DNA of 50,439 nt from Deltaproteobacteria bacterium. Its GTDB lineage: Bacteria > Desulfobacterota > Desulfobulbia > Desulfobulbales > Desulfurivibrionaceae. The stretch covers positions 1-50,439 of the forward strand of contig JAJZRF010000016.1 of the NCBI GenBank assembly GCA_021847425.1. The letters are read 5' to 3'. Positions 8,664 through 44,453 of the stretch are shown one piece after another. The translations under genes were made by a program, and so were the position numbers. A model generated the notes under the pieces. That model worked only from the letters and a program-made list of their open reading frames with translations. It was not told the DNA's origin and searched no databases. Numbering within the stretch: the first letter of the stretch is position 1; each line of letters opens with the position of its first letter.

Positions 8664-8978
8664 ATGACAGTATCGAAGAAGCAGGTGGCAACATTGGTTG
8701 GTTTGGTTATGATGGCGGCTATGGCAGCCAACGCCTTTGCCTTCACGGGCCAGAATTTTGCCCCAGAGGCCAAAATCAACATTGAACAGGCGCGGGCGAT
8801 TGCTCTCAAGGCCCATCCCGGCAAGATTATCAATGAGGAATTGGAGCAGGAAAAAGGGGGCAGCGGCCTGCGCTATTCCTTCGACATTCAGCACGACAAG
8901 GTTACGCAGGAAGTCGGCGTGGACGCAAAGACCGGTCGGGTACTGGAAAACGCCCCCGAAGGCCCCAACGCGGATTAA
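8664..8978 (+). CDS. small secreted PepSY-domain protein, copy 1, 104 aa
   Basis: Small exported protein with a Sec signal peptide (about 1-26, ending ANAFA) and a single PepSY domain built on EQARAIALKAHPGKI and the strand LRYSFDI followed by VGVDAKTG. PepSY domains are thought to bind peptides or modulate peptidases and metals in the envelope; the exact role here is unknown. AAGGAG lies at the ideal distance before the ATG. It is roughly 80% identical in sequence to the protein at 21069, and the homology extends into the upstream sites and downstream terminator, so the whole transcription unit was duplicated. Each copy follows an exporter block, which suggests an accessory or sensor-tuning role for envelope efflux. 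Confidence 0.88.
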   Translation: MTVSKKQVATLVGLVMMAAMAANAFAFTGQNFAPEAKINIEQARAIALKAHPGKIINEELEQEKGGSGLRYSFDIQHDKVTQEVGVDAKTGRVLENAPEGPNAD

Positions 8979-9002
8979 TCCTTGCACTGATGATCGGCCA
9001 TC

Positions 9003-9036
9003 CCCGTTCGTCGTCATGAGGACGGGCTTTTCTTTA
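9003..9036 (+). terminator. rho-independent terminator of pepSY copy 1
   Basis: CCCGT at 9003-9007 pairs with ACGGG at 9022-9026, followed by the U-rich tail CTTTTCTTT. The equivalent hairpin follows pepSY copy 2 at 21404-21430. Confidence 0.7.
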
Positions 9037-9890: not shown

Positions 9891-10568
9891 ATGAGAATTC
9901 TTATAGTCGAAGATGACAAGCAGACCGCCTTGTTCATTTTAAAAGGGCTGAAGCAGGAAGGCTTTGCCGTGGACCACGCCTCGAACGGCGAAGAGGGCCT
10001 TCATCTTGCATTAACACAATCCTACGACGCTGCGGTGATTGACATCATGCTGCCCAAATTGGACGGGCTGGCGGTGATTGACGAAATGCGCCGAAACGGC
10101 ATCGAAACTCCCGTTATCGTTCTGAGCGCCAAGAGTTCGGTCGATGACCGAATTAATGGCCTCCAGGCTGGTGGTGACGACTATCTTGTTAAGCCCTTCG
10201 CTTTTTCGGAATTAGTAGCGCGTATTCAGGCGCTACTAAGGCGGGCTACCAGAGCTGCTGAACCAACGACACTCTCCGTCAGTAATCTCAAAATAGACCT
10301 GGTAAGGCGCAAAGCCTACAGAAAAGACATTGAGCTTGAACTACAGCCAAAGGAATTCGCCTTACTGGAATACCTCGTGCGGAATGCCGGCCGGGTCGTT
10401 TCAAAAACGATGATCATGGAGCACGTTTGGGACTACAACTTCGACCCGCGGACTACTGTGGTTGAATCACGCATATGCCGCCTACGGGATAAAATAGACC
10501 GTTCGTTTGCAGGCAATCTCATCCATACGATACGGGGTGTCGGGTATGTTCTTGAAGAGAGGGACTAA
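9891..10568 (+). CDS. OmpR-family response regulator, 225 aa
   Basis: Complete two-domain regulator. The receiver domain has the acidic pair EDD (7-9), phospho-acceptor Asp51 in DIMLPKLDG and the conserved Lys101 in YLVKPF. The winged-helix DNA-binding domain occupies about 130-225, ending in IHTIRGVGYVLEE. It resembles the CusR/CopR group that controls metal and envelope efflux, but that group cannot be separated from relatives by eye. It is followed by, and overlaps, its kinase. The likely targets are the RND pump genes from 12150, downstream on the same strand. Base composition looks A/T-richer here than in the flanking pump genes, which may reflect a different origin. Confidence 0.93.
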   Translation: MRILIVEDDKQTALFILKGLKQEGFAVDHASNGEEGLHLALTQSYDAAVIDIMLPKLDGLAVIDEMRRNGIETPVIVLSAKSSVDDRINGLQAGGDDYLVKPFAFSELVARIQALLRRATRAAEPTTLSVSNLKIDLVRRKAYRKDIELELQPKEFALLEYLVRNAGRVVSKTMIMEHVWDYNFDPRTTVVESRICRLRDKIDRSFAGNLIHTIRGVGYVLEERD

Positions 10569-11964
10569 TTTTCTGCGAACCACAACCTTCCGGCTCACCC
10601 TCTGGTACCTTGTGGTGTTTAGCATATTGTCGCTGGCGGTGTTCTTGGTCGGCTATGTGTCTCTCGCCTCGCATCTCCACAACCAGACTGATCATGAGAT
10701 CATGGACATGGCTAAGGCGTTCGAGGCCCTTTACAAGGAACATGGCGTGACTGCGCTCCAGGGCGAGTTTACGCGCGAGGCGGAATCACGGGGAACAAAG
10801 CGGATGTTCTTTCAACTGTTCTCACCGGAGGGAATATTGCTGGCGACATCTGATTTGAGCCAGTGGAATGGATTTGTAACGCCCCACTTGGCTGCATCGG
10901 CCCCATCCTTGGGCCAGGTGTCTTTCCGCACGCTCTCCTTGGCTGGCCATCGGCACAAAGTAAGAGTGATGATTTCCAAGGCTGATACTGACGGCAATGT
11001 GCTTATAATCGGCAACACCCTCCAGGACGCCGAAATCATGCTGGAGAAATATCGGGAGACATTCGGTACTGCCCTCATGGCCATGCTGGTTTGCGGCGGC
11101 TTGGTAGGATGGCTTTTGGCCAGGAAAGCTATGTCAGGGGTCCAAAGGGTGACAGACACGGCGACCCGGATAGGGAGGCATGATCTTAGGCGAAGGGTAG
11201 AGCTGGCTGGTGAAGGAGAAGAGATAAAGGCACTTGCCCATGCCTTCAATGCCATGCTGGAACGGATAGAATCTCTTTTGAACGAGTTGCAGCAGATAAC
11301 TGATAATGTTGCTCATGAGCTGCGCACCCCTATTACGCGCATCCGCGGCATCGCCGAGACAACCCTGAAGGGCAGCGGAGATCTTAATGAGTATCGCGAA
11401 ATGGCGGCCTCGATCATCGATGGAAGCGATGACCTGATCGAAATGATCGGCACGATGCTGGAGATAGCAAAGACCGATTCGGGGGTCGCCGAACTTAACC
11501 TCGTGCCTATGAATATTCAAGAGATTGTCGAGGAGGCCGCAGATCTGTTCACTCCCATGGCCGAGGATAGAGGCATCAACATCCGCCTGGATAAGCCGCC
11601 TCATCAGACCGTGGAGGTTCTTGGCGACCGGTCAAGGCTGCAACGCGTCGTGGCGAACCTGTTGGACAATGCCATCAAGTACACGCCCTACGGCGGTACG
11701 GTAATCCTATCTGTCGATGAATATGCGGGGGGAGTGAAGGTGGAAATCAGCGATACCGGCGTGGGTATCAATGAAAAGGACATTTTTCACGTCTTTGAGC
11801 GCTTTTACCGCGGCGACAAAAGCCGTTCGACAACAGGCAGCGGCCTTGGATTAAGCCTGGCGCTTGCTATCATCCACGCCCATGGCGGCAACATCACCGT
11901 AAAAAGCACCGATACAGGAAGCGTTTTCTCCATTCTCCTGCCCAGCAAGCAATCCCTTCGATAA
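10546..11964 (+). CDS. sensor histidine kinase (CusS-like architecture), 472 aa
   Basis: Membrane sensor kinase for the preceding regulator. I chose the ATG at 10546, which leaves a 23-base overlap; an ATG at 10507 would add 13 residues of no evident function. A transmembrane helix near 14-36, a periplasmic domain of about 110 residues and a second helix near 162-182 are followed by HAMP. The HisKA box NVAHELRTPITRIRGIAE has His257. The HATPase domain shows NLLDNAIKYTPYGG, DTGVGI and GSGLGLSLALAI. This is the usual layout of heavy-metal sensor kinases. No His/Met-rich metal motif stands out in the periplasmic loop, so the ligand is unknown. Confidence 0.92.
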   Translation: MFLKRGTNFLRTTTFRLTLWYLVVFSILSLAVFLVGYVSLASHLHNQTDHEIMDMAKAFEALYKEHGVTALQGEFTREAESRGTKRMFFQLFSPEGILLATSDLSQWNGFVTPHLAASAPSLGQVSFRTLSLAGHRHKVRVMISKADTDGNVLIIGNTLQDAEIMLEKYRETFGTALMAMLVCGGLVGWLLARKAMSGVQRVTDTATRIGRHDLRRRVELAGEGEEIKALAHAFNAMLERIESLLNELQQITDNVAHELRTPITRIRGIAETTLKGSGDLNEYREMAASIIDGSDDLIEMIGTMLEIAKTDSGVAELNLVPMNIQEIVEEAADLFTPMAEDRGINIRLDKPPHQTVEVLGDRSRLQRVVANLLDNAIKYTPYGGTVILSVDEYAGGVKVEISDTGVGINEKDIFHVFERFYRGDKSRSTTGSGLGLSLALAIIHAHGGNITVKSTDTGSVFSILLPSKQSLR

Positions 11965-12149: not shown

Positions 12150-13523
12150 ATGAAGCATCCGCTTTTATTCATTGTTTTGATCATGCTGTCCGGTTGTGCG
12201 ACTTACCACGCGCAACCTATCGCGCCAGCGGCATTGATGAACGCTTTCGAGGCGCGCACGCTGGATAGCCCAGATCTGCGGGAATACGTTGCCGCACATT
12301 GCGGCGATACCGATTCCTGCACGCCCGGCATCTGGGATTTAAACACGCTGACGTTGGCTGCTTTTTATTTCAGCCCGGCATTGGATATCGCGCGCGCCAA
12401 GCACGGCGTCAGTCAAGCTGCTATTCAGAGCGCGGGGCAGCGTCCCAACCCTGCTCTCCAACTTCCACTCGCGTACACCACCAACGCCAAAGCCGGCGAA
12501 TCGCCTTATACCTTCGGCCTGGGTCTGGATATTCCGCTTGAAACCGCCGGCAAGCGCGGCTACCGGCTGGCGCAGGCGCAACAGATGTCCGACGCCGCAC
12601 GATTTAATATCGGCACCATCGCCTGGCAAGTACGCAGCCGCTTGCGCGGACATATGCTCAATTTCTATGCCGCGACCAGCAGAATAGAGATTCTGGGACA
12701 ACAAATCGCCGCGCAACAGCAGATCGTGGCGATGCTAGACAAGCGGCTGGCCGTGGGCGCGGCATCGTTTCCGGAAGCCGACCAAGCGCGCATTGCGCTG
12801 ATCCGGAACCGCATCGATCTGGCGCACGCGCAACAGCAGAGTCAGGACGAGCGCGCGCAAATCGCATCGGTGATTGGGTTGCCGGTCGATGCGCTGGCGA
12901 ACATCCAAATTAGTTTTGGCGCCTTTGAGCGGGTCCATCCCGCTATCCCAGCCGATGACGCCCGCCGTCAGGCGATTCTCAACCGCGCCGACGTATTGGC
13001 TGCGCTATCGGAATACGAGGCCAGCCAAGCGGCGCTGCAACTGGAAATCGCCCGCCAGTATCCCGACATTCATATCGGGCCAGGCTACACTTTCGATGCG
13101 GGGGCGGACAAATTCGTGCTGCCGGTTTCCGGCATCAGCTTGCCCCTTTTCAATCAGAATCAAGGGCCGATTGCCGAAGCCAGCGCACGCCGCACGGAAG
13201 CGGCCGCGCGCGTCCACGCGTTGCAAGCGCAAGCCATTGATGACACACAGCGGGCAGTGCAAAATTACCGTACCGTGCTGGAAAAGTTACATCTCGCCGA
13301 ATCGCTGCTGTCAGCCCAGCGGCGTCAATTGCAAGACCTGCAAAAGACCTATAAGGCCGGTGAGACGGGTCGGCTGGCGCTGACCCTGGCGCAACAAGAA
13401 TTTTATACGCAGGCCTTGACCCGCCAGGATGCGCTGGTGCAGGTGCAACGAAATATCGGTCAACTGGAAGACGCCATGCAGCGGCCGCTATTGACTACCG
13501 ACTTCCCCGCCGTTCCCGAATAG
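12150..13523 (+). CDS. TolC-family outer membrane efflux lipoprotein (CzcC/CusC-like), 457 aa
   Basis: Outer-membrane channel of the second RND system. Lipobox LSGC places the lipidated Cys at residue 16. Two OEP repeats follow: the first contains NPALQLPLAYTTN and GLGLDIPLETAGKRGYR, the second GISLPLFNQNQGPIAEA. These are hallmark phrases of the CzcC branch of heavy-metal channels. It is separated by twelve bases from the adaptor gene, which has its own AGAGGAGA site. About 185 bases of leader with several small dyads lie between the kinase and this gene, enough for an independent promoter under control of the adjacent regulator. Confidence 0.9.
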   Translation: MKHPLLFIVLIMLSGCATYHAQPIAPAALMNAFEARTLDSPDLREYVAAHCGDTDSCTPGIWDLNTLTLAAFYFSPALDIARAKHGVSQAAIQSAGQRPNPALQLPLAYTTNAKAGESPYTFGLGLDIPLETAGKRGYRLAQAQQMSDAARFNIGTIAWQVRSRLRGHMLNFYAATSRIEILGQQIAAQQQIVAMLDKRLAVGAASFPEADQARIALIRNRIDLAHAQQQSQDERAQIASVIGLPVDALANIQISFGAFERVHPAIPADDARRQAILNRADVLAALSEYEASQAALQLEIARQYPDIHIGPGYTFDAGADKFVLPVSGISLPLFNQNQGPIAEASARRTEAAARVHALQAQAIDDTQRAVQNYRTVLEKLHLAESLLSAQRRQLQDLQKTYKAGETGRLALTLAQQEFYTQALTRQDALVQVQRNIGQLEDAMQRPLLTTDFPAVPE

Positions 13524-13535
13524 AGGAGATCAAAT

Positions 13536-14597
13536 ATGAATTCGCGGTTTACTATCAAACACCTCACGCTAATGATTTTGATGCTGGGCATGGCTGGGAT
13601 TGCCGTCTGGTCGTTGCTTCAGGACAAACGGGATCTAAGGCCGGAAACGGTCACGCCTGCGGCAACACAACGTGTTACGATTGTGAACGGCGTAACCATG
13701 GTGTCGCTCGACGCCGCGACTCAGGCGCAAAGCGGTATCCTTACTGAACTCTTGTCCGCGGCGAGCTATCAGCCGGAAACAGTCACCTATGGCTCGGTCC
13801 TGGATTTGCAGCCGCTGATTGATCTGCGTGTGCGTTACTTTTCCGCGCTGGCCGATGCCAGTATGGCGCAAGCAATGGTGGCTGCCTCCCGGCAAGAGTA
13901 CGAACGTAACCGTCTCCTGTATCAGGACAACCAAAATGTTTCCCTGAAAACGTATCAGGCCACCCAGGCGGCTTATCTGTCCGATCAGGTCAAGGCGGAT
14001 ACCGCTGCGCTTAACGCAAAAAGCATCCAGGCTGCGGTGCGGCAGCAGTTCGGCGCGACGCTGGGACGCTGGGCGCTTAATTCCCGTTCGACCGAATTTG
14101 CGCGTCTTTTAAACCGGGAGGAAGTGTTGTTGCGCGTTATCTTGCCGCTTGACGATGGTAGCGCGGCACCCGCCCGGATTCAAATAGCCGCGAACGATAG
14201 CCTGCGGTTGCCGGCTTATCTGGTTTCGCCCTCGCCACAAAGCGATCCTGCCATTCAAGGCAGCGCTTTTATTTATCGCGCCGCTGCACCGATAGCGACC
14301 GGCACCAGTATTGTTGCGTACCTGCCCACTGTCAGGCAAACTACACGCGGGATTCTTATCCCCGCCGGCGCAGTTGTCTGGTACGGCGGGCAACCGTGGG
14401 CCTATGTGCAAATAAACCCCGATCGTTTCGGCCGCTACCCGATGGCGCAAAAATTCCCCATGCACGGCGGTTTTTTTGTGGCGCAGGAATTTAAACCGGG
14501 AGAGCGTGTCGTCGTCAGCGGCGCGCAGTTGCTGCTTTCCGAGGAATTACGGCCGCAGGCCGGCAGTTCTGGTTCCAAAGATCCGGAAGGCGACTGA
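13536..14597 (+). CDS. RND efflux periplasmic adaptor, 353 aa
   Basis: Adaptor of the second pump, anchored by an uncleaved N-terminal helix (about 10-27). A short alpha-hairpin around 110-160 (MAQAMVAASRQEYERNRLLY) is embedded in the lipoyl/barrel architecture, followed by a membrane-proximal part ending in GFFVAQEFKPGERVVVSGAQ. The hairpin and the early phrase TQAQSGILTELL are typical of CzcB/CusB-like adaptors. There is no CusB-type Met-rich metal site. The gene lies between channel and permease genes on the same strand, as expected for a CBA operon. Confidence 0.88.
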   Translation: MNSRFTIKHLTLMILMLGMAGIAVWSLLQDKRDLRPETVTPAATQRVTIVNGVTMVSLDAATQAQSGILTELLSAASYQPETVTYGSVLDLQPLIDLRVRYFSALADASMAQAMVAASRQEYERNRLLYQDNQNVSLKTYQATQAAYLSDQVKADTAALNAKSIQAAVRQQFGATLGRWALNSRSTEFARLLNREEVLLRVILPLDDGSAAPARIQIAANDSLRLPAYLVSPSPQSDPAIQGSAFIYRAAAPIATGTSIVAYLPTVRQTTRGILIPAGAVVWYGGQPWAYVQINPDRFGRYPMAQKFPMHGGFFVAQEFKPGERVVVSGAQLLLSEELRPQAGSSGSKDPEGD

Positions 14598-14599
14598 AC

Positions 14600-14632
14600 A
14601 TGAAAAATAACGATTGCGTGATGTCATGCTGA
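14600..14632 (+). other. ten-codon open frame overlapping the permease start
   Basis: ATG at 14600 opens MKNNDCVMSC and stops at 14630-14632, four bases beyond the permease ATG (14626) in another frame. Since the permease has no good ribosome binding site, this mini-frame could feed ribosomes to it by re-initiation. It could equally be chance. Confidence 0.25.
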
Positions 14633-17600
14633 CCTCCATTGTTCGTTTTGCCATCCGTTTGCGCGGTGTGGTGATCAGCCTGGCCTGTCTGCTGGCAGGC
14701 TACGGCATCTATACCCTCTATCATTCAAAGCTCGATGTATTCCCTGAATTCGCCCCGCCCTTGGCGATCATCCAGACCGAAGCGCCCGGCCTGTCGAGCG
14801 AACAGGTCGAAGTGCTGGTCACCCAGCCGATCGAGAACGCGATGGGCGGCACGCTGGGGCTCCAAACCCTTCGTTCCAAATCGCTGCAGGGCTTGTCCGT
14901 GGTCACCATGACTTTTCGCGATGGCATGGACGTCTATCGTGCCCGGCAGTTGGCGTCCGAGCGTCTCGGCAGCGTTGCGGGCAAACTGCCGCGTGGGGTC
15001 AAGCCGCCCGCACTGCTGCCGCTCAGTTCGTCGACCGGTGTGGCGATGGTCATCGGATTAACCTCCGACGTCCGATCCCCAATGGAGTTGCACAAGCTCG
15101 CGGAATGGACCTTGCGACCGCAACTGCTCGGCCTGCCGGGTGTTGCCGACGTGGTGGTGTTTGGTGGCGATGTGCCACAATTTCAGATTCAAGTCGACTC
15201 GCAGAAACTCGTTCGTTACGGATTGTCGTTGCAAGATGTGCTGAACGCCGCCAAACGCTCGACCGGTGTGCGCGGCGCGGGCTTTCTGGAAAACGCCAAT
15301 CAGCGCATCGTCATCAATACCGAAGGCCAGATACAAACCGCCGAGCAGCTGGCCCACGTCGTGGTGCGTTATAAAAATGGAATCGGTATTCATCTGGGCG
15401 ATATCGCCCAGGTCGCCATTGCGCCGGCGCCTGCGGCAGGCGCCGCAGCCATAAGGGATAAGCCTGGCGTGATGCTGATCATCGAAAGCCAGTACCACGC
15501 GGATACGATGTCGGTCACCCAATCCGTTGAACAGGCGCTGGTGGAGTTGAAACCCGTATTGGCCGCCAATCAGGTTACTCTCCATCCGGATATTTTCCGG
15601 CCCGCCAACTTCATCGTGGCAGCCATCGGCCATCTGCGCACCGCGTTGCTGCTGGGCGGTTTGCTGGTCATCGTCGTGCTGTTCTTGTTTCTGCTCGATG
15701 TCAGAACCGCTTTTATCTCGGCCACGGCCATTCCCTTGTCCCTATTGACCGCGGTAATCGTCCTGCATTATTTCGGCGTCAGCCTGAATACCATGACGCT
15801 GGGCGGATTGGCTATCGCGCTCGGAGAAGTGGTGGATGACGCTATTATCGATGTAGAAAATATTTTACGGCGACTGCGCGAAAATCAGACCCTGGCAAAA
15901 CCGTTGTCCGCCGCGCGAGTGGTGCTGAAGGCCTCAATCGAAGTGCGCAGCGCGGTGGTGTTCGCGACCTTTATCGTCGCCCTGGTATTCCTGCCGGTGC
16001 TGACCCTGTCCGGCGTTGCGGGCAAATTGTTCGCGCCACTCGGCATCGCTTACATCCTCGCCATCCTGGCGTCGCTGGTCGTGGCCATGACGGTTACGCC
16101 CGCATTGGCTTACGTTCTGCTGACGAGGAAGCCGCTGCAGGCCGGAGAGCCGCGACTGGTGCAAGGATTAAAAGCGCGCTACCATAATTTGTTGTCCTGC
16201 GTCGAGCACCGATCGCGGCTGGTTATTTCGGTGATCGTCGTGCTTTGTATCGCGGCGCTGGCGACCCTGCCCCTTCTTGGCGGCAGTTTTATTCCGGAGA
16301 TGAAGGAAGGTCATTACATAGTCCATATGGCGGCGGCGCCCGGCACTTCTTTGGCCGAATCGATGCGTATCGGCCGCGAAATCACCCTGGCTTTGGGTAA
16401 AATTTCCGGCGTGCGTCTTGTAGCGCAGCGCGCCGGGCGGGCGGCCGAGGTCGTCGACCCGGTGGGGGTCAATATCAGCGAATTCGAGGTCGATCTCAAA
16501 CCGATGTCGGGGAGCAGACAGGAACGCGCGTTAGCCGATATCCAGCGTACGCTGGCGCACTTTCCGGGCTTGACGACTTCTGCCAATACCTTCCTCACCG
16601 AGCGGATAGATGAAACTATTTCCGGCTATACGGCACCAGTTATCGTCAATATCTTCGGCAACGATCTCGATATCCTCGATGCCAAGGCGCAGGAAATCGC
16701 CCAGGTGTTGAACCGCACCCCGGGCGCCATCGGCGTCGGCGTGCAATCGCCGCCCGGCACGCCGCAACTGGTCATCCGCCTGCGGCAGAATCAGTTGACG
16801 CGCTTCGGTTTCGAGCCGGTGGATCTGCTGGAGGCGATCCAGGCCGCTTACCAAGGGATCACTGTCGCACAGGTTTATGAAGGCAACCGGATCTACGACA
16901 TTGCCGTGTGCTTGAGTCCCGCCGACCGCGAAAGTCCGGCGGAAGTGGGAGCACTGCCCTTGCGCAATCCGCAAGGCTTGATGGTTCCGCTCAAACAACT
17001 GGCCGATATTTATCAATCCATCGGCCGCTACCAGATCCAGCATACCGGCGGTCAACGCTTGCAAACCGTGACATCCGGCGTACAGGGCCGGGCCATAAGC
17101 GATTTTGTTGCACTGGCGCAAGCGAGGGTCAACAAAGAAGTGGCCTTTCCCAAAGGAACGTACGCGGTATTTGCCGGTGAAGCGCAGGCGCGGGAGCAAT
17201 CGCAGCATGATTTGCTGGTTCACGCTGTCCTGGCGGGAATCGGCATTGTGCTATTGCTGTTCATGGCCCTGCGCAGCACGCGCGCACTGCTGCTGGTTCT
17301 GGTGAACCTGCCGTTTGCCCTGATCGGCGGTGTTGTAACCGTGCTGATCACGGGCGGCAATCTGACGCTGGGTTCCCTGATCGGTTTTGTTACCTTGTTC
17401 GGCATTACCCTGCGGAACTCGATCATGCTCATTTCCCACTACCAGCATCTGGTGAACCGGGAAGGCCTGGTCTGGGGTCCGGAAGCAGCTAATCGCGGCG
17501 CATCCGAGCGGCTGGTGCCGATTTTGATGACTGCCCTGGTCACCGCCCTGGGTCTTTTGCCGCTGGCAATATACAGCGGGGCGCCCGGCAACGAGATCGA

Positions 17601-17709
17601 AGGGCCGATGGCGATCGTCATTCTCGGCGGGCTGATTACGTCGACGGTTCTGAACCTGCTGGTGCTGCCGACGCTGGCTTTACGCTTCGGGCGCTTCGAG
17701 AAAGGATGA
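14626..17709 (+). CDS. RND efflux permease, CzcA/CusA-like branch, 1027 aa
   Basis: Second RND pump. I take the ATG at 14626, beginning MLTSIVRFAIRLRG as is usual for this branch; a TTG at 14614 would add four residues. The helix 4 relay reads GEVVDDAIIDVEN with Asp404, Asp405, Asp409 and Glu411, a pattern I associate with a CzcA-like clade of putative metal pumps. It differs from the first permease (GLIIDDAIVMVEH). Full-length periplasmic loops and the second block ending LRFGRFEKG make it complete. The CzcC-like channel and neighbouring kinase favour metal export, but the substrate is not proven by sequence. Confidence 0.9.
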   Translation: MLTSIVRFAIRLRGVVISLACLLAGYGIYTLYHSKLDVFPEFAPPLAIIQTEAPGLSSEQVEVLVTQPIENAMGGTLGLQTLRSKSLQGLSVVTMTFRDGMDVYRARQLASERLGSVAGKLPRGVKPPALLPLSSSTGVAMVIGLTSDVRSPMELHKLAEWTLRPQLLGLPGVADVVVFGGDVPQFQIQVDSQKLVRYGLSLQDVLNAAKRSTGVRGAGFLENANQRIVINTEGQIQTAEQLAHVVVRYKNGIGIHLGDIAQVAIAPAPAAGAAAIRDKPGVMLIIESQYHADTMSVTQSVEQALVELKPVLAANQVTLHPDIFRPANFIVAAIGHLRTALLLGGLLVIVVLFLFLLDVRTAFISATAIPLSLLTAVIVLHYFGVSLNTMTLGGLAIALGEVVDDAIIDVENILRRLRENQTLAKPLSAARVVLKASIEVRSAVVFATFIVALVFLPVLTLSGVAGKLFAPLGIAYILAILASLVVAMTVTPALAYVLLTRKPLQAGEPRLVQGLKARYHNLLSCVEHRSRLVISVIVVLCIAALATLPLLGGSFIPEMKEGHYIVHMAAAPGTSLAESMRIGREITLALGKISGVRLVAQRAGRAAEVVDPVGVNISEFEVDLKPMSGSRQERALADIQRTLAHFPGLTTSANTFLTERIDETISGYTAPVIVNIFGNDLDILDAKAQEIAQVLNRTPGAIGVGVQSPPGTPQLVIRLRQNQLTRFGFEPVDLLEAIQAAYQGITVAQVYEGNRIYDIAVCLSPADRESPAEVGALPLRNPQGLMVPLKQLADIYQSIGRYQIQHTGGQRLQTVTSGVQGRAISDFVALAQARVNKEVAFPKGTYAVFAGEAQAREQSQHDLLVHAVLAGIGIVLLLFMALRSTRALLLVLVNLPFALIGGVVTVLITGGNLTLGSLIGFVTLFGITLRNSIMLISHYQHLVNREGLVWGPEAANRGASERLVPILMTALVTALGLLPLAIYSGAPGNEIEGPMAIVILGGLITSTVLNLLVLPTLALRFGRFEKG

Positions 17710-17743: not shown

Positions 17744-20422
17744 ATGCCGAACAGCTTTGACGGCCTGAGTGACGCGGAAGTACAGGCGCGCCGCGAAAGA
17801 GGCGAGGCCAACCGGGTCTTGGAACCCGCGAGCCGGGCGGGATGGGAGATTGTTCGCGCAAATGTCCTTACCCGCTTCAACGCGCTCCTGGGTTCGCTAT
17901 TCGTCGTCATCCTCGCGGTGGGATCATGGCAGGACACATTGTTCGGCGGTGTTCTCATCATCAATTCCCTGATCGGGATCATTCAGGAACTGCGGGCAAA
18001 ACGGACGCTGGAGCGCCTCGCGCTGCTTAGCCAGTCCAAGGCATGCGTGGTTCGCTCTAGGCGGATTATCGAAATCCCGGCAACGGAGATCGTCCTCAAT
18101 GATGTTCTCGATCTGGCCCCCGGCAATCAGATTCTGGTGGACGGCGTCCTGCTTTCAGCCGACAACCTGGAGGTGGACGAGTCCCTTCTAAGCGGCGAAG
18201 CCGAACCTGTGCCCAAAGAGGTGGGCGAGACAGTGCTCTCGGGGAGCTTTGCGATTGCCGGGAACGGGCGCTACCGGGCAACACGGGTCGGATCGGCTGC
18301 CTACGCCCACAACCTCGCCAGGGAGGCCCGGCACTTCAGCCTGGCGCACTCCGAGCTGCGCGCCGGGATCAACCGGATGCTCCGCTACGTCACATGGGCG
18401 ATTGTCCCGACAGCCCTGCTCCTTTTTGGGAGCCAAGTCATCGCACAGGCGCATCTGACCGGCGCGCTGCTTTTTTCCGCCGCCGGCGTGGTTGCCATGG
18501 TGCCCGAGGGACTGGTGCTGCTGACTAGCGCGGCGCTCGCCCTGGGGGCGATTCGATTGGCGCGCCGGAATACGCTCGTCCAGGACCTCCCGGCGACCGA
18601 GACGCTGGCGAGGGTCGACGTTATCTGTCTCGACAAGACCGGCACCCTGACCGAGCGAGAGCCCGAGGTCGAGCACGTCGAGTTGTTGGCAGCCCATCCC
18701 GGCGCGCTAAACGCACTGTCGGCACTCGCGGCAGTCGACCCCAGTCCGAATGGCACCTTGCGGGCAATCGGTCGCGCCTATCCCAACGCAGGTGGCGTTG
18801 TTTCCACAAGCCTGGTGCCGTTCTCGTCGGTTCGCAAATGGAGCGGCGCAACGCTTGACGAACTGGGTACTTGGATTCTTGGCGCCCCCGAGAGGCTCCT
18901 GGCCCATATCCCGGGAAGCGAAACCGTGCGAGCCCGTGCCGAGAATCACGCCCAGGCCGGGCGGCGCGTACTTCTCCTCGCCAGCACGGACAGTGAACTT
19001 GCCCCGGATCGCTTGCCCCCCGGCCTTGTTCCGGTCGCACTCGTGCTGCTGGCCGAACGGGTCCGTGCCGGCACAACCGAAACACTGCGGTATTTCGCCG
19101 AGCAAGGCATCACGGTAAAAGTGATTTCGGGAGATCATCCCGGCACGGTAAGCCAGGTGGCGATGAAAGTCGGCGTGGCGGACGCCGCCGCGCCTGTAGA
19201 TGCACGGCAGTTGCCGGAGGATCCGGCGGCACTCTCCGAGCTCGTGGAAACACGCGCGGTGTTTGGCAGGGCATCGCCGCAAGAGAAGCGGTCGATCATC
19301 GCGGCGCTCCAGGCGAAAAGCCACGTGGTCGCCATGGTGGGGGATGGCATAAACGACATCCTCGCGCTCAAGCAGGCCGACGCCGGCATAGCCATGGGCG
19401 CCGGAACCGGGGCCGCGCGCGCGGTCTCGCAGCTTGTCCTGCTCGACAACCGGTTTGCGAACCTGCCATTGGTCGTCGCCGAGGGCCGCCGCGTGATCGG
19501 CAACGTCGAACGGTTGGCCGTGCTGTTTCTGACGAAAACCGTCTATGCCATGCTCCTCGCTTTCGCCGTGGGTATTGCGGATGTCACCTTCCCCTTCCTG
19601 CCTCGCCATCTGACCTTGGTCGGTTCTCTCACGATCGGCCTTCCAGCCTTCTTCCTCTCCTTCGAACGCAATGCGGAACGGGTCCGTCCCGGTTTCGTCG
19701 AGCGTGTCCTCCGTTTCGCGGTGCCCGCGGGGCTCGTCGCAGCGGTTGCCACTTTTGCCGCCTACGCCCTCGTTGCCGGCTATCTCGCGGGAAGCGCCAG
19801 CGAGGCACGCACTGCCGCAACAGTTGTCCTGTTCTCCGTAGCTTGGTGGATACTCGCCATCCTGGTTTGGCCCCTCAGACCGACTCGCCTGCTTCTTATC
19901 GGCGCCATGCTGGCCGCGTTTGCAGTGGTTCTGGCCGTGCCGCCTCTACGGGCGTTCTTTGCACTGGAATCCTTACCGGCTGGGGCGTGGTTTGTCATTG
20001 CCGGCATTGCAATAGCCGCCGGTGCCGCTTTGCACAGGAGTTCGCTAGCGGCGGCCCGCGTAAGTCCTGAGCTGGCGAGGGGCCGGCGCTTTCAATGGAG
20101 AGATATCCTGGCTTGGCTGGTCAGCCGGGAAAGCCCGAAATGGTTCCTCGTCTCCGCCGCGCTTCTCATCCTCGGCGGTGCTTGGCTGTTCTTCGGGGTA
20201 TTGGAGGATGTGGCAAGCCACGACCCGCTGGTGGAAGTAGACGCCATCGTCTACGGCCTCCTGCAGAAACTGCGAACTCCGGCAGTGGATAGCCTGATGG
20301 TCGCGATCACGGAGCTGGGGGACATCCAAGTATTGCTGCCGGTGATCTTGGCCGCCTTGGCGTGGTTCATCGCCCATCGCCTCTGGCATACCGCAGTGTA
20401 TTGTATTGGCTCGCTGCAATAG
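17744..20422 (+). CDS. P-type cation ATPase (CtpE-like) running into the N-terminal half of a PAP2 domain, 892 aa
   Basis: ATP-driven cation transporter. The actuator loop has SGEA at 150-153 (the TGES position), the helix-4 motif is PEGL (254-257), the phosphorylation site DKTGTLT begins at Asp297, and the hinge motif GDGIND is at 533-538. PEGL rather than PEGLP or CPC, and the short cytoplasmic N-terminus, point to the CtpE group, described as Ca2+-related; the ion here is inferred. The ATPase part ends near residue 770. From about 780 the chain is the membrane N-terminal half of a PAP2 phosphatase (WLFFGVLEDVASHDPLVEVD, then TELGDIQVLLPV). It terminates early after HTAVY because of a frame change at 20397-20406. 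Confidence 0.88.
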   Translation: MPNSFDGLSDAEVQARRERGEANRVLEPASRAGWEIVRANVLTRFNALLGSLFVVILAVGSWQDTLFGGVLIINSLIGIIQELRAKRTLERLALLSQSKACVVRSRRIIEIPATEIVLNDVLDLAPGNQILVDGVLLSADNLEVDESLLSGEAEPVPKEVGETVLSGSFAIAGNGRYRATRVGSAAYAHNLAREARHFSLAHSELRAGINRMLRYVTWAIVPTALLLFGSQVIAQAHLTGALLFSAAGVVAMVPEGLVLLTSAALALGAIRLARRNTLVQDLPATETLARVDVICLDKTGTLTEREPEVEHVELLAAHPGALNALSALAAVDPSPNGTLRAIGRAYPNAGGVVSTSLVPFSSVRKWSGATLDELGTWILGAPERLLAHIPGSETVRARAENHAQAGRRVLLLASTDSELAPDRLPPGLVPVALVLLAERVRAGTTETLRYFAEQGITVKVISGDHPGTVSQVAMKVGVADAAAPVDARQLPEDPAALSELVETRAVFGRASPQEKRSIIAALQAKSHVVAMVGDGINDILALKQADAGIAMGAGTGAARAVSQLVLLDNRFANLPLVVAEGRRVIGNVERLAVLFLTKTVYAMLLAFAVGIADVTFPFLPRHLTLVGSLTIGLPAFFLSFERNAERVRPGFVERVLRFAVPAGLVAAVATFAAYALVAGYLAGSASEARTAATVVLFSVAWWILAILVWPLRPTRLLLIGAMLAAFAVVLAVPPLRAFFALESLPAGAWFVIAGIAIAAGAALHRSSLAAARVSPELARGRRFQWRDILAWLVSRESPKWFLVSAALLILGGAWLFFGVLEDVASHDPLVEVDAIVYGLLQKLRTPAVDSLMVAITELGDIQVLLPVILAALAWFIAHRLWHTAVYCIGSLQ

Positions 20423-20889
20423 GCGTGGCGGAAGCCCTGGTCAAGGTGCTCAAGTTGACCCTGCATCGGCCGCGACCCGGTCCGTTCTATGGCGGAGTCG
20501 AACAGTTTTCCTTTCCCAGCGGTCATGCCACCTTGAGCATCGTCGCCTACGGATTCCTGGCATTCCTGCTATGCCGCGGGGAGCAACACCGCCTGCGCAT
20601 GGTGTTCGCACTCGCAGCGGCACTACTGATCGCGCCGATCGCTTTCTCCCGGCTGTATCTGGGAGCACACTGGCTGTCCGACGTGCTCGGCGGCCTGAGT
20701 TTCGGGGTGGCATGGGTCGCGGTGTTGGCCGTGGCCCATGTATACCAGACCCATGAAGACCTTAAGCCCAGGCGGCTGGCCGCAGTCATGCTTGCGACCC
20801 TTGTGATCGCGGGAACCGCCCACATCGCTACAGATCACGCCGTCGATCTTGCGCGCTATGCATACCAACCCCTCTCAGGGGAGAGATAA
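20362..20889 (+). pseudogene. PAP2 phosphatase catalytic half, split from the ATPase frame
   Basis: This frame carries the PAP2 catalytic motifs: KLTLHRPRP (C1), PSGHAT (C2) and SRLYLGAHWLSD (C3). Such enzymes dephosphorylate lipid phosphates such as undecaprenyl pyrophosphate or phosphatidic acid at the membrane. True homology begins at about 20407 (YWLAAIGVAE); sequence before that in this frame is spurious. The missing N-terminal helices are encoded in the -1 frame at the end of the ATPase gene. Removing one copy of TGTAT (20402-20406) joins both frames into a 1046-residue ATPase-PAP2 protein. It may still be translated from the ATG at 20362, but would then lack its first helices. Confidence 0.8.
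20397..20406 (+). repeat. 5-bp tandem duplication TGTAT-TGTAT
   Basis: Two adjacent TGTAT units. With one unit, the reading frame continues HTAVY-WLAAIGVAE, exactly what PAP2 homologues look like; with two it reaches TAG after five codons. This is the likely lesion that separated ATPase and phosphatase. Confidence 0.75.
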
Positions 20890-20911
20890 ATATCGGAAAT
20901 CGGGGCTAAGT

Positions 20912-20946
20912 CTGCCCTAATTTTCTGGGCGTAAAGTGATTATCAC
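20912..20946 (+). repeat. 35-bp direct repeat, copy A
   Basis: Identical to 20981-21015. It contains the stem GCCC-TAATTTTCT-GGGC and the dyad GTGAT-T-ATCAC. It lies upstream of pepSY copy 2 and is a candidate tandem operator or a small duplicated promoter segment. Confidence 0.7.
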
Positions 20947-20980
20947 AACGTTGGTGTCACCACAAAATTGATCCTTAATG

Positions 20981-21015
20981 CTGCCCTAATTTTCTGGGCG
21001 TAAAGTGATTATCAC
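20981..21015 (+). repeat. 35-bp direct repeat, copy B
   Basis: Second identical unit, starting 69 bases after the first. Its GTGATTATCAC leads straight into GGTGGACGC (21016-21024), the block also seen in front of pepSY copy 1. The arrangement suggests two factor-binding sites on the pepSY-2 promoter. Confidence 0.7.
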
Positions 21016-21068
21016 GGTGGACGCCAATGCGCCTGCCCGATTTCAATCAACTCGATAGGAGCATCACA

Positions 21069-21380
21069 ATGACAGCACCGAAGAAACACCTAATCACTTT
21101 ACTGGGTCTGGTTCTGACCGTAGCCGCGGCCAATGCGCTCGCCTTCACCGGCCAGAAATTTGCAGGGGAGGCGAAAATCAATCTGGAACAAGCTCGGGCG
21201 ATTGCCCTCAAGGCCCATCCAGGCAAAATTACCGATGAGGAACTGGAGCAGGAGAAAGGCGGCAGCGGCCTGCGTTATTCCTTCGACATTAAGCACGGCG
21301 AGGTCACGCAGGAAGTCGGAGTAGACGCCAAAACCAGCAAGGTACTGGAAAACGCCCCGGAAGGGCCGAATGCGGATTAA
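21069..21380 (+). CDS. small secreted PepSY-domain protein, copy 2, 103 aa
   Basis: Paralogue of the protein at 8664. The ATG at 21069 is chosen because AGGAG precedes it by seven bases; an ATG at 21027 has no such site. The signal peptide ends near ANALA, and the PepSY core EQARAIALKAHPGKI, the segment GGSGLRYSFDI and the C-terminus LENAPEGPNAD are shared with copy 1. Most differences are in the signal peptide. It lies between the P-type ATPase/PAP2 unit and an ABC exporter, with its own promoter repeats and terminator, so it is likely a separate transcript. Function is presumed periplasmic; no catalytic residue is visible. Confidence 0.88.
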   Translation: MTAPKKHLITLLGLVLTVAAANALAFTGQKFAGEAKINLEQARAIALKAHPGKITDEELEQEKGGSGLRYSFDIKHGEVTQEVGVDAKTSKVLENAPEGPNAD

Positions 21381-21403
21381 CCGCTAAACTGGAAAGTGGC
21401 CAC

Positions 21404-21439
21404 CCCCGTTCCTCACCCTGAGGAGCGGGGCTTCTCCTT
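21404..21439 (+). terminator. rho-independent terminator of pepSY copy 2
   Basis: CCCCG (21404-21408) pairs with CGGGG (21426-21430), with an inner CCTCA/TGAGG stem and a CTTCTCCTT tail. It is homologous to the terminator after copy 1, and both are followed by a shared CGCAAGGCC block. Confidence 0.65.
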
Positions 21440-31096: not shown

Positions 31097-31510
31097 TCAC
31101 TCCTCAACCTTGCCGCGCATGGCTTTTACCCTGCCCCTCTTTTCCTTGCTCTCCAGACGCTTTTCCCTGGCGCTACGCGAGGGCTTGGTGGGCCTGCGCC
31201 TGCGCTTTTCCCTGACCGCGCCTCTGATAAGCTCAGCCAGCCGTTCCAGGGCGTCGGCCCGATTCTTTTCCAGGGTGCGGAACCGCTGGGCCTTGATGAT
31301 GATCTCGCCTTCTTTGCTGAGGCGTTGATCGCTCAGGTTCAGAAGCCTCTCCTTGTAAAAATCCGGGAGCGTTGAAGCACGGATATCAAAACGCAGGTGC
31401 ACGGCCGAGGAGACCTTATTGACATTCTGCCCGCCGCTGCCCTGGGCCCGGATGGCGGTCAGATCGATTTCGTTGTCCGGAATCGTAATAGTATTTGTAA
31501 TGTGCAGCAC
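31097..31510 (-). CDS. arfB: ArfB peptidyl-tRNA hydrolase (ribosome rescue), 137 aa
   Basis: Rescues ribosomes stalled on truncated mRNAs by hydrolysing peptidyl-tRNA. It starts at GTG (31510) with AAGGTG four bases upstream. The catalytic GGQ motif (26-28 in RAQGSGGQNVNK) lies in a release-factor-like domain, and the basic C-terminal tail (REKRRRRPTK to the end) is the part that enters the mRNA channel. Length is typical. It follows the sigma-54 regulator by 17 bases on the same strand and probably belongs to the same transcript. A truncated second copy of this start and of the regulator end lies at 25235-25665. Confidence 0.93.
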   Translation of the reverse strand: MLHITNTITIPDNEIDLTAIRAQGSGGQNVNKVSSAVHLRFDIRASTLPDFYKERLLNLSDQRLSKEGEIIIKAQRFRTLEKNRADALERLAELIRGAVREKRRRRPTKPSRSAREKRLESKEKRGRVKAMRGKVEE

Positions 31511-31527
31511 GTTTCACCTTCGTCCGC

Positions 31528-32961
31528 TCAGGAATCATGGTGGCGGAAGCTGTTCGCCTGGATGGCGGTGCGCCGCATGATCTTTTGCAGCGCCGCCCTG
31601 GTCAGGCCGGAAATCTCCGCGGCCCGGCTCACATTGCCCCTTGTGTCCTGCAGCAGGCGCATAACATACTGACTCGTGAATTTCTGCAACAATTCCTCCT
31701 TGGCCTCCTTGTACGCCGTCACCCTTTCGTTTCCGGATGACGCCGACAGCCAGGAGGCGGTCTCGTCGGGCAACATGTTTTCCGAAGAGATAAAGGCTTC
31801 GATATCTCCGGGCGAAATAACGTTCTCGGCGCTGAACAGCACCGCCTGCCGGACCACGTTCTGCAGCTCCCTGACATTGCCCGGCCAAACTCTTCCCATG
31901 AGGACTGCAATCGCCTCCGGGGAAAAATGCTTCCCGCCGATGCCGAGTTCACAGCAGACCTGCCTGCAAAAATGGTCCACCAGTAGGGGAATGTCTCCTC
32001 GCATCTGAAACAGCCTGGGCGGGGTGAGGGTCACCACGTTGAGCCGGTAAAAAAGATCCTCGCGGAAGGAACGGTCAATGATCTTTTCCTCAAGGTTCTG
32101 GTTGGTTATGGCAATGATCCGGACATTGATCCTGCGGGTTTTGGTGTCTCCCAGGGGTTTTATCTCCTGCTCCTGCAAGACCCGGAGCAGTTTGGTCTGG
32201 ACCGAGACCGGGATATCGCCGATTTCGTCAAGACAAAGGCTGCCGCCGTCCGCCTCCACGAAAAGCCCCGGATAATCCCGCTCCGCTCCGGTGAAAGCCC
32301 CGCGCTTATGGCCGAACAACTCGCTTTCCAAAAGTTGTTCGGGAATGGCCGGACAATTGACCATGATCAACGGCCGGTTGCGACGCCGGCTCAAGTTGTG
32401 CACCGCCTGGGCCGCAAGCTCCTTGCCCGTGCCGGATTCGCCCCGGATGAGCACAGTGTAATCGGACAAGGCCACGGTCTTGAGACGTTCGCAGAATTGG
32501 ATCATGGCCGGGCTCTGCCCGATAAAGGAAGCGAAGGCCTTCTTTTGACAGACCTGTTCCTTCAAGGTGACATTTTCCCGGACCAGCCGGTTTCTTTCCA
32601 GCCCCTTGTGGATCACCCGCAGGATGGTGTCTCTGTCGAACGGCTTGGTGACAAAATCGTAGGCCCCCTTTTTGATGGCGTCAACCGCCAGATCAATGCT
32701 GGCAAAAGCGGTCATCATGACCACGGAAAGTTCCGAATCCAGGTCTCGCAATTTCTCAAGCAGGGCGATGCCGTTCATCTCCGGCATCATCACGTCAAGC
32801 AGGGCGAGATCGAAGGATTGTTCGGCCATCAGGCGCAGAGCCTCGCTGGCCCTGGTGGAAGTGACCACCTCAAGTTCCGGGATATTGCGCTCGATGGTTC
32901 TTTGCAGACCAGTGAGCATGTCCTCTTCGTCATCAACAATCAAAAGCCGCTCAAACGACAT
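31528..32961 (-). CDS. sigma-54-dependent response regulator (NtrC family), 477 aa
   Basis: Activator with three domains: a receiver (phospho-acceptor Asp56 in LLDVMMPEMNG), an AAA+ domain with Walker A GESGTGKE, the sigma-54-contacting loop GAFTGA and Walker B-like SLCLDEIGD, and a C-terminal Fis-type helix-turn-helix (about 438-462). I chose the ATG at 32961, which has GGAGG eight bases upstream, over the ATG at 32991 that overlaps the kinase stop. The kinase gene lies directly upstream. All parts needed for activation of sigma-54 promoters are present. Targets are not visible nearby: no clear GG-N10-GC promoter was found. Confidence 0.93.
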   Translation of the reverse strand: MSFERLLIVDDEEDMLTGLQRTIERNIPELEVVTSTRASEALRLMAEQSFDLALLDVMMPEMNGIALLEKLRDLDSELSVVMMTAFASIDLAVDAIKKGAYDFVTKPFDRDTILRVIHKGLERNRLVRENVTLKEQVCQKKAFASFIGQSPAMIQFCERLKTVALSDYTVLIRGESGTGKELAAQAVHNLSRRRNRPLIMVNCPAIPEQLLESELFGHKRGAFTGAERDYPGLFVEADGGSLCLDEIGDIPVSVQTKLLRVLQEQEIKPLGDTKTRRINVRIIAITNQNLEEKIIDRSFREDLFYRLNVVTLTPPRLFQMRGDIPLLVDHFCRQVCCELGIGGKHFSPEAIAVLMGRVWPGNVRELQNVVRQAVLFSAENVISPGDIEAFISSENMLPDETASWLSASSGNERVTAYKEAKEELLQKFTSQYVMRLLQDTRGNVSRAAEISGLTRAALQKIMRRTAIQANSFRHHDS

Positions 32962-32987
32962 ACGCCCTTCCTCCGGCCGTGTTCTTT

Positions 32988-35522: not shown

Positions 35523-35890
35523 GGAAGATCCTTTACCCATTACTATTTTCACTCTTTTTTGCAGGTCGCGGGAAAAATTCAAAAATCCTTTTTCAAGGAG
35601 TACTTCATATAATCATACAGCCATTCCAGGTGTCAACTAAAGATGCCAGTGAATACCTATGGATACACATACTGCCCAGCTTTTGCTTCCCATCTGAAAA
35701 GTCCACCAAGCATTGCATGCACAACTACTTGTTTTTTCTATATTATTCTTCTGTGTTGGTTTTTTGTTTCAGATGGCACTTTTTTTGCTTCAGGACATAA
35801 CCATGCTCGTTGGAAGACGAGTCATTTTGCGTCTGCGGACCCGTTACAAGTATTTTTTTGTAACACACTCAACAAAAAAGGAGGAAGAGC
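35523..35890. other. divergent intergenic region between the kinase and the YeiH-type gene
   Basis: 368 bases without a convincing gene, A/T-rich, with several T-tracts (35728-35780). It must hold the promoter of the minus-strand kinase operon and that of the plus-strand transporter. The dyad at 35843-35864 is its only striking structure. Confidence 0.5.
35843..35864. promoter_or_regulatory. inverted repeat GTTACAA-N8-TTGTAAC
   Basis: Perfect 7-bp arms separated by 8 bases, ending 26 bases before the transporter ATG. It looks like an operator for a dimeric regulator (CRP/FNR- or TetR/GntR-type geometry), likely controlling the transporter; a weak terminator for the opposite strand is the alternative. 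Confidence 0.45.
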
Positions 35891-37264
35891 ATGGCTGAGA
35901 TTGAGGCGAAAAAGGCAAAGCCAATGGGTTGGACGGAATTGTATCTGAAGGAGGACTGGTGGGCCATCTATCTGGGGCTCGGCATCACTTTTCTTGCCGT
36001 GATCGCGTTCATGAATGGTTCGCCGATGCTTAAATCGCTGGCCATCAATCCCGGTGGACTTAAATGGACTTCGCTCGACCAGTTGTTTGCCCACTTCGCG
36101 AACAACTACCATTTGTATGCGGTGCAGTTTATCGCCTGGCTCGTGATATTGGGAATCTCGACGAGAATCATGGGCATCAAAACCTCGGAGTTCATTGGCG
36201 CGTTCGTGATTCTCTATTTGCTGTCAATGGTTTCGTTTTCCATCGGTGGTTGGGCGAGCGCGGGAAATTACATGTTGGAACCGCCCTTTGTGGCGCTTCT
36301 GATAGGGCTTGCAATAGCGAACGTTGTGCCTTTCCCCAAATGGATGGATTCGGGATTCAGGGTGGAATACTACATCAAGACAGGCATCGTGCTCCTTGGT
36401 GCAACATTCCCCCTCAGGCTGGTGCTGTCAGCTGGCCCTGTTGCCCTTTTTGAGGCAACCGTAATATCCCTGACGACATGCTTGACGATCTACTTTGCGG
36501 CAACAAAGCTCTTTGGCCTCGACAAACGGCTGGCAGCGGTCATCGGCACCGGAGGCGCCGTTTGCGGCGTGTCCGGCTCCATGGCCATTGCCAGCGCCGT
36601 GGGAGCGAAGAAGGAAGATCTTTATACTTCGGTGACCCTCGTGGTCGGCTGGGCCCTGGTCATGATCCTCTTTATTCCGTTTGTCTCAAATATCCTTCAT
36701 CTTCATCCCGGAATTGCCGGAGCATGGGTGGGGACATCCGAGTTCGCCGATGCCGCGGGTTTTGCGGCGGCCAGCTCCTATGGACGCCTGGCTGGCAATG
36801 AGGACGCCGCAATCCAAGGATTTACCCTGATGAAGGTTATCGGCCGGGATATATGGATCGGTATCTGGTCTTTTGTCTTTGCCCTGATCGCCTGCTTTAA
36901 ATGGGAGAAAGAGGCGTGCGGGGTAAGGCCACCCGCCATGGAAATCTGGTGGAGATTTCCGAAATTCGTCTTGGGATTTTTTGTGGCGTCGCTGATCATG
37001 ACGAGCCTCGTTGCGGGCTATTCGCCAGCGGATTTCAAAGCCCTTGTAAAACCGGGACTCTTTGGGCCTATCGCAGGGATTCGCACCTGGGCTTTTATTT
37101 TCTGTTTTCTGAGCATCGGGCTTACGACGCGCTTCAAAGAACTTAAGTCCGCGGGCTGGAAACCTTTCTTCGCGTTCACCATAGGCGTCGCGGTGAACGT
37201 AACGCTCGGTTTCATCCTGTCTGCTTATGTGTTCGGCGATTACTGGAGTAAGCTGGGCCAGTAG
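35891..37264 (+). CDS. YeiH-family putative sulfate exporter, 457 aa
   Basis: Integral membrane protein with about eleven hydrophobic helices spanning residues 25-450. The motifs VLLGATFPLRLVLSAGPVAL and GTGGAVCGVSGSMAIASAVG are signatures of the YeiH/UPF0324 family, often annotated as putative sulfate exporter (PSE), and of TauZ-like sulfonate catabolism loci. Biochemical evidence for that substrate is thin. A very strong AAAGGAGGAAGAGC leader precedes the ATG. It is separate from its neighbours, with the dyad upstream. In a sulfate-reducer-like host a sulfur oxyanion role is attractive but inferential. Confidence 0.85.
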   Translation: MAEIEAKKAKPMGWTELYLKEDWWAIYLGLGITFLAVIAFMNGSPMLKSLAINPGGLKWTSLDQLFAHFANNYHLYAVQFIAWLVILGISTRIMGIKTSEFIGAFVILYLLSMVSFSIGGWASAGNYMLEPPFVALLIGLAIANVVPFPKWMDSGFRVEYYIKTGIVLLGATFPLRLVLSAGPVALFEATVISLTTCLTIYFAATKLFGLDKRLAAVIGTGGAVCGVSGSMAIASAVGAKKEDLYTSVTLVVGWALVMILFIPFVSNILHLHPGIAGAWVGTSEFADAAGFAAASSYGRLAGNEDAAIQGFTLMKVIGRDIWIGIWSFVFALIACFKWEKEACGVRPPAMEIWWRFPKFVLGFFVASLIMTSLVAGYSPADFKALVKPGLFGPIAGIRTWAFIFCFLSIGLTTRFKELKSAGWKPFFAFTIGVAVNVTLGFILSAYVFGDYWSKLGQ

Positions 37265-37302
37265 AATGTCTGTCTGGGCAGACGAATATGCAGGAGGAGC
37301 AC

Positions 37303-37506: not shown

Positions 37507-37535
37507 GAAGGCGCCCATCGTGGACCCAAATCGAA

Positions 37536-37571
37536 AAAGGATGGCGTCTCCGCAAGGGGACGCCATCCTTT
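37536..37571. terminator. strong bidirectional terminator
   Basis: A perfect 13-bp stem, AAAGGATGGCGTC with GACGCCATCCTTT, around a 10-base loop. A and T runs on both sides make it work for both the + strand small-protein gene and the convergent - strand gene ending at 37631. Confidence 0.85.
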
Positions 37572-37630
37572 CGTTGCAGTTCAATTGCCTTCGCCTCAAC
37601 TCCCCGGGATCGCGCTGGTCTTTTTTCCCA

Positions 37631-42357: not shown

Positions 42358-42363
42358 CGGCTT

Positions 42364-44445: not shown

Positions 44446-44453
44446 CACGCTCT

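Follow-up and report, generated by a model that had tools for sequence, protein, structure and literature searches.

A P-type ATPase-PAP2 fusion gene, split by five extra bases and located directly downstream of RND efflux genes

Results

A split gene for an ATPase-PAP2 protein

We analyzed a 50,439-nucleotide stretch of DNA (hereafter the window; contig JAJZRF010000016.1 of GenBank assembly GCA_021847425.1) from a deltaproteobacterium assigned to the Desulfurivibrionaceae. Two overlapping open reading frames (ORFs) of the window together encode a predicted cation-transporting P-type ATPase joined to a PAP2 lipid-phosphate phosphatase domain, and the break between them coincides with a short tandem repeat. 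The features of this locus are as follows.

17744..20422, + strand: ORF1, 892 amino acids (aa), ATG start; P6/CtpE-like P-type ATPase (approximately residues 1-780) followed by the start of a PAP2 domain
20362..20889, + strand: ORF2, 175 aa; catalytic PAP2 part with motifs C1 (KLTLHRPRP), C2 (PSGH) and C3 (SRLYLGAHWLSD)
20397..20406, + strand: tandem pair of the 5-bp unit TGTAT; five more bases than in two intact relatives

The final ~100 residues of ORF1 form the beginning of a PAP2 domain and are followed by a stop codon. Relative to ORF1, ORF2 is read in the -1 frame, and all three catalytic motifs fall within it, just as a first-pass annotation made from the sequence had described. The repeat itself reads TGTATTGTAT. 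Because 5-bp tandem pairs are common in the window (57 start positions, seven of them in the gene, of which three belong to the TGTAT repeat itself), the presence of the pair alone proves nothing. Comparison with relatives, by contrast, yields a correspondence that exceeds chance.

Intact fusions lack the five extra bases

Six intact ATPase-PAP2 fusions were identified. One (L102, 1257 aa) is carried by the Burkholderia contaminans plasmid pB1701, and the other five (L153 and L154, 1046 aa each; L155, 1070 aa; L156, 1050 aa; L157, 1051 aa) come from 399 genomes of a single order, that of a Methylophilaceae assembly, which we take to be Burkholderiales. The search of this order (E<=1e-90) returned 15 matches, ten of which cover the ATPase only, in frames of 794-834 aa. 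The other five span both domains; the match in genome G866 shows one TGA, yet its 1050-aa ORF has no internal stop. Both the ATPase and the PAP2 domain score above the Pfam cut-offs in all six proteins. The pB1701 fusion, a single ORF in the plasmid search, carries an added LssY_C tail and is annotated solely as a HAD-IC family P-type ATPase.

Two of these genes are close enough to the window copy for comparison base by base. Over the whole gene, DNA identity to the window is 93.2% for L153 and 93.4% for L154; in an alignment of the site both are five bases shorter exactly at the TGTAT pair and encode uninterrupted proteins. The length of 1046 residues is the one that the first-pass annotation had predicted on removal of one TGTAT unit. 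Similarity to the B. contaminans fusion is lower and extends over both pieces (ORF1, 55.7% identity over 887 columns; ORF2 against its PAP2 part, 55% over 157 columns). These comparisons confirm that the ATPase-PAP2 architecture truly occurs in nature, and that the window copy is a single gene which five additional bases have split. The same annotation had proposed one fused protein, to be abandoned if homologues were always separate genes with the same break; six intact full-length homologues with the stated domain order uphold the proposal and contradict that case.

A recent lesion or an assembly error

Omega values against L153 are 0.27 for the ATPase piece and 0.19 for the PAP2 piece, those against L154 are 0.32 and 0.38, respectively, and the value for L153 against L154 is 0.25. 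Both window pieces look constrained, with similar purifying selection on each, and the break therefore is either very recent or an error of assembly. The sequence as it stands encodes a complete ATPase that lacks the phosphatase half.

An assembly or polishing error, which would mean that the cell carries an intact gene without the five bases, comes close to an even call. The source genome consists of 121 contigs at 81% completeness, neither piece has any other interruption and both look constrained, and two near-identical intact copies exist, although a five-base tandem duplication is also typical of replication slippage. As a usual slippage product, the duplication also favors a genuine mutation of recent date in an accessory gene that has become dispensable, possibly leaving a working ATPase without PAP2. 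We consider this plausible, if somewhat doubtful. Free-standing ATPases of ~800 aa with P6 marks (see below) occur in ten of the 15 matching genomes, with the motifs present in all ten, and so the ATPase part could work alone. In addition, no close relative of the ATPase is found in 16 draft congeners (75-99% completeness), where the best match has an E value of 1.3e-39 and 28% identity. On the other side, no relaxation of selection can be measured on the 3′ piece, which is also what one would see if the loss were very recent.

It is highly improbable that the split is functional and yields two proteins by frameshifting or by internal re-initiation at GTG 20362. The two ORFs do overlap, and start codons are available to ORF2 in its own frame at 20362 (GTG) and 20401. 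However, a scan of 20340-20422 found no slippery heptamer of the form X-XXY-YYZ, so that programmed frameshifting is not indicated and was rejected; moreover, the first PAP2 helices would be missing from a product of ORF2 alone, and the gene is uninterrupted in all six relatives.

The pump part carries the marks of P6 ATPases

In Pfam searches ORF1 matches E1-E2_ATPase (PF00122, 130.8 bits) and HAD hydrolase (PF00702, 76.2 bits), with Cation_ATPase_C (26.6 bits) just under its cut-off. The hallmarks of P-type ATPases are present as DKTGT at residue 297 and GDGIND, corresponding to the hinge motif GDGxND, at residue 533. The position that we take to be TGES in P-type ATPases reads SGEAEP in the window protein. 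Among the nearest solved relatives by sequence, which are Ca2+-ATPases, lmo0841 of Listeria ranks first (E=5.1e-53).

P6 ATPases (family 23) are described in a review by a PEGL motif in transmembrane segment 4 (TM4) and by an isoleucine that replaces the TM6 aspartate of Ca2+ efflux pumps (PMC10654040). By the same review the group was named only in 2023, with substrate and direction argued from the mycobacterial example. That example is CtpE of Mycobacterium smegmatis, a Ca2+ uptake pump with VPEGL according to its report (PMC5615198). VPEGL is found at residue 253 of ORF1 and in all six intact fusions, and the TM6 signature LTIG(L/I)P, with its isoleucine, is found in ORF1 (SLTIGLPAFF) and five of the six, L102 having SVTIGIP. 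The matching column in SERCA presumably reads VTDGLP. The window protein thus resembles CtpE in TM4, in TM6 and in its type II domain layout, and differs in that CtpE is a free-standing protein of 791 aa, whereas here PAP2 is fused behind the pump and the gene stands behind RND genes.

The motifs are widespread among free-standing relatives as well. All ten from the order search have VPEGL and TIG(I/V)P, as do three of five others (L022, L024 and L104). Of the remaining two, L023 has VPNGL and TVGIP, and L103 has IPEGL and, in the part of it that was used, nothing matching the TM6 motif. The best four relatives among the matches listed in a pattern-based contig scan (L022-L025) show no PAP2 motif in the available stretches. 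A tree of 22 ATPases was built from the seven fused proteins (window included), the ten free ones from the order search and five named free ones, with further matches from the contig and plasmid scans left out. In this tree the seven fused ATPases group together in a single clade (98/97; recovered in 98% of 200 bootstrap trees) whose nearest neighbors are free-standing actinobacterial ATPases, and one fusion event would be enough to explain the data.

An AlphaFold model of ORF1 (5 sequences) has a mean pLDDT of 61.5, with values below 50 from residue 745 on, including the PAP2 part. Its Foldseek matches are P-type ATPases of several ion types with TM-scores of ~0.5-0.6. On these matches we drew no inference about substrate.

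The phosphatase part

PAP2 enzymes share three motifs, C1 (KX6RP), C2 (PSGH) and C3 (SRX5HX3D). ORF2 contains all of them and scores 69 bits against PF01569 (cut-off 27.2), and hydropathy predicts ~7 helices for the PAP2 domain. The plasmid records that match ORF2 best encode the pB1701 fusion (55%) and, at up to 51%, DedA-PAP2 proteins. ORF2 also aligns over the three motifs with the PAP2 phosphatase PgpB/YodM of Bacillus subtilis (PDB 5jki, 6fmx; E=2.3e-11), which differs in being a single-domain enzyme. Among the intact fusions, the three motifs are all canonical in L153, L154 and L155, and both histidines are retained in five of the six.

The first-pass annotation had proposed that the fusion couples ion transport to turnover of lipid phosphate or undecaprenyl phosphate. 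This part of its interpretation remains a conjecture. The PAP2 domain is degenerate in some relatives, and the window genome has two BacA genes alongside its one PAP2 match, so that undecaprenyl (pyro)phosphate turnover need not rest on the fused domain. A PAP2 match is also present in two of the 16 congeners.

RND efflux genes precede every fusion examined

The gene is embedded in a set of regulatory and efflux genes, including those of a resistance-nodulation-division (RND) system.

9891..10568, + strand: response regulator (Response_reg, Trans_reg_C)
10507..11964, + strand: sensor histidine kinase (HAMP, HisKA, HATPase_c)
12150..13523, + strand: TolC-type outer-membrane factor (PF02321); 47% identity to the pB1701 TolC
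13536..14597, + strand: periplasmic adaptor (membrane fusion protein, MFP); no Pfam match, weak TIGR01730 and TIGR00999 matches; 37% identity to the pB1701 adaptor
14614..17709, + strand: RND permease, heavy-metal-efflux-like (PF00873, 789 bits); 64% identity to the pB1701 RND permease; directly upstream of the fusion
21027..21380, + strand: PepSY protein (PF03413), downstream; also near the intact fusion L153, 95% identity

The order in the window is thus response regulator, kinase, TolC, adaptor, RND permease, fusion and PepSY gene. The TolC, adaptor and permease genes are consecutive at 12150-17709, which is the layout of a heavy-metal-efflux (HME) RND operon. The permease scores 685.4 bits against TIGR00914 (CusA/CzcA), under the cut-off of 701.45, so its heavy-metal type is a matter of resemblance and not of membership. 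Plasmid pB1701 shares the gene order up to the fusion, with 36% identity for the response regulator and 29%, over 300 residues only, for the kinase. In each of the seven fused loci, window included, the gene immediately upstream of the fusion encodes an RND permease. This RND neighborhood and the P6/CtpE identity of the pump are additions to what the first-pass annotation had reported.

One of the ten free-standing ATPases from the order search (L167 6471-14764; P6 motifs, ~36% identical) lies directly before a TolC-adaptor-RND set whose permease is 63% identical to that of the window, and the other nine have neither such a set nor PAP2 in their available flanks, some of which are short. On plasmids, where there are at least 5000 matching records, we inspected the RND neighborhoods of nine of the 20 matches listed. 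A PAP2 or undecaprenyl-diphosphatase gene is annotated within 7-8 kb on either side in five of the nine, and two more have genes for GtrA and for glycosyltransferases of families 2 and 39. The last two (A. caldus and Caulobacter) show neither gene group in the gene tables of that collection, which are incomplete. GtrA proteins and family 2/39 glycosyltransferases use undecaprenyl phosphate. On Rhodanobacter plasmids (L133, L134), related RND genes are found among genes of these two kinds.

A DedA-PAP2 protein occupies the same slot on a plasmid

In B. cenocepacia plasmid pBCEN1232, the homologous TolC-MFP-RND genes are directly followed by a gene for a DedA-PAP2-LssY_C protein (VTT_dom, PAP2, LssY_C), whose PAP2 domain scores 40 bits in Pfam and is without both catalytic histidines. 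DedA-PAP2 fusions have been described, including PA4011 of P. aeruginosa (PMC10127716, PMC12893004). As in the window protein, a transporter-like N-terminal part is joined to PAP2, and ORF2 is 36% identical to the PAP2 domain of pBCEN1232; the N-terminal partner of these proteins, however, is a DedA flippase-type domain and not an ATPase. ORF1 has no Pfam match to VTT_dom and carries P-type ATPase domains instead, which places it outside the DedA-PAP2 group. The occurrence of both kinds of protein in the slot after the RND genes suggests, from gene order, that the transporter partners of PAP2 may be exchangeable.

Such a replacement of DedA by an ATPase before PAP2 raises the idea that the ATPase may move lipid phosphate. 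The P6 part would then be an ATP-driven flippase standing in for the DedA module, and a single protein would both dephosphorylate and flip a lipid (pyro)phosphate. We regard this as quite unlikely; if it were true, P6 ATPases would be a bacterial counterpart of the P4 lipid flippases, situated beside RND efflux.

Two DedA-PAP2-LssY-type proteins, at L130 10163-12208 and L102 11754-13793, have lost the PAP2 catalytic histidines, and in the second the PAP2 domain is not found by Pfam. This loss suggests a non-enzymatic role for PAP2 in the RND setting.

Distribution and signs of horizontal transfer

Searches with the pB1701 protein found the fusion in no genome besides that of the window among 257 genomes of the window's order and class, where six other genomes match the ATPase part only or the PAP2-LssY part only (E<=1e-60). 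Widening the search to 395 genomes sampled from its phylum added nothing to the window copy. In the phylum of G649, 398 sampled genomes yielded no match at E<=1e-90, an empty result that by itself would say little, although the same query was successful in the 399-genome order; the family of G694 contains G694 alone. Among plasmid records there are 112 matches at E<=1e-30, and of the 30 listed only pB1701 itself reaches at least 80% query coverage. A phage origin was considered and rejected: a scan of IMG/VR with the pB1701 fusion gave 18 loci, all within the ATPase part.

The end of the window that carries ParE and ParC belongs to the genus, as ParE from 11 of the 12 congeners searched shows 93-98% identity (two of them by a partial match), against 36% in the twelfth. 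In 14 named genomes from several phyla, the best ParE match to each is 33-38% identical. Four blocks of 31106-50057 are collinear in genome G010, with no match at 35.5-38.9 kb. Across the 80 kb of G010 used for comparison, nothing longer than 150 bp corresponds to the first 25 kb of the window, fusion included. DNA identity between L153 and the window is 87% for RND2, 93% for the fusion and 90% for the PepSY-ABC stretch, while the TolC, adaptor and RND genes differ more; the flanks of L154 differ from those of L153. The contig of L153 could conceivably be misbinned. By these comparisons the fusion gene looks horizontally acquired, and the pattern is that of a mobile, mosaic efflux island. Distantly related bacteria seem to swap components of this efflux module.

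Discussion

A possible partner of RND efflux

The best explanation that we can offer, which we hold with even confidence, is that the locus carries a horizontally spread P6 ATPase-PAP2 fusion that works with the upstream RND efflux system and is broken in the window copy. It draws on what can be read from the sequence, namely the anatomy of the gene, its intact relatives, the single fused clade, the constraint on both pieces and the RND neighborhood. The protein would be a P6 (CtpE-like), ATP-driven divalent-cation pump, joined at its C terminus to a PAP2 lipid-phosphate phosphatase and working with the tripartite, heavy-metal-like RND system encoded directly upstream. Under metal or envelope stress, the ATPase would move a divalent cation across the inner membrane (Ca2+ import, by analogy with CtpE) and the PAP2 domain would act on or bind lipid phosphates at the outer, periplasmic face of that membrane. 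Together, the two parts may tune both the cation and the lipid-phosphate status of the envelope where the RND pump works.

Several observations weigh against this explanation. None of the NCBIfam equivalogs reaches its cut-off with ORF1, and the P6/CtpE family name hence rests on motifs; the tree holds no CtpE, and the closest named free-standing kin are actinobacterial proteins of ~46-52% identity. The substrate is putative, being assigned by analogy with CtpE. RND adjacency is an association and not joint function, and the RND permeases beside L155-L157 belong to a different branch (~30% identity). Finally, C2 reads PSSH in L102; in L157 it reads PISH, and C1 carries an insertion. L156 has HP for RP in C1, PSGD in C2 and asparagine for the C3 histidine, and so has lost both histidines. 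Phosphatase activity cannot be assumed for every member of a group with such degenerate motifs.

The heavy-metal-like RND neighbor is also compatible with metal detoxification, in which the ATPase would deliver a toxic metal to the periplasm, phosphate released by PAP2 would precipitate or bind it, and the RND system would remove the rest. In one transcriptome study, two PAP2 genes are ~twofold up with cadmium, and precipitation by released phosphate is suggested (PMC2121137). We think this role unlikely, as CtpE, the studied relative, imports Ca2+ (PMC5615198) and PAP2 is degenerate in some members.

A related arrangement is the CzcCBA efflux system of P. aeruginosa, which is reported to need the P-type ATPase CadA (PMC7242495). 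There, as proposed here, metal efflux of the RND type and a P-type ATPase act together, but the ATPase is CadA, a Zn exporter. CadA is not known to have a PAP2 domain.

A literature search, with subscription journals mostly outside it, found no description of a P-type ATPase-PAP2 fusion among the papers listed, in agreement with the remark in the first-pass annotation that no such system was known as characterized. The accessible parts of PMC6355987 (phosphatases, DedA) and PMC2121137 describe no such fusion, and that of PMC8679861 (indium, DedA) contains no matching operon. The joined protein is apparently an undescribed, new domain architecture of known families. The split gene, the real fusion and its novelty as first proposed are supported, and only the coupling stays conjectural. 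The fusion to a lipid phosphatase, the RND adjacency and the presence of a DedA-PAP2 protein in the same slot provide a testable lead on the partners of P6 pumps.

Repeats near the PepSY gene

Between ORF2 and the PepSY gene lies a 40-bp direct repeat (20907-20946 and 20976-21015; 95% identical). L153 has three copies of a related 92-bp leader, two before PepSY genes and one, at 11757-11848, upstream of TolC; the repeat and the leader are possibly a shared control region. A second PepSY-like stretch, at 8724-9023, is located upstream of the two-component genes and has 81% DNA identity to the PepSY gene downstream of the fusion (21126-21425).

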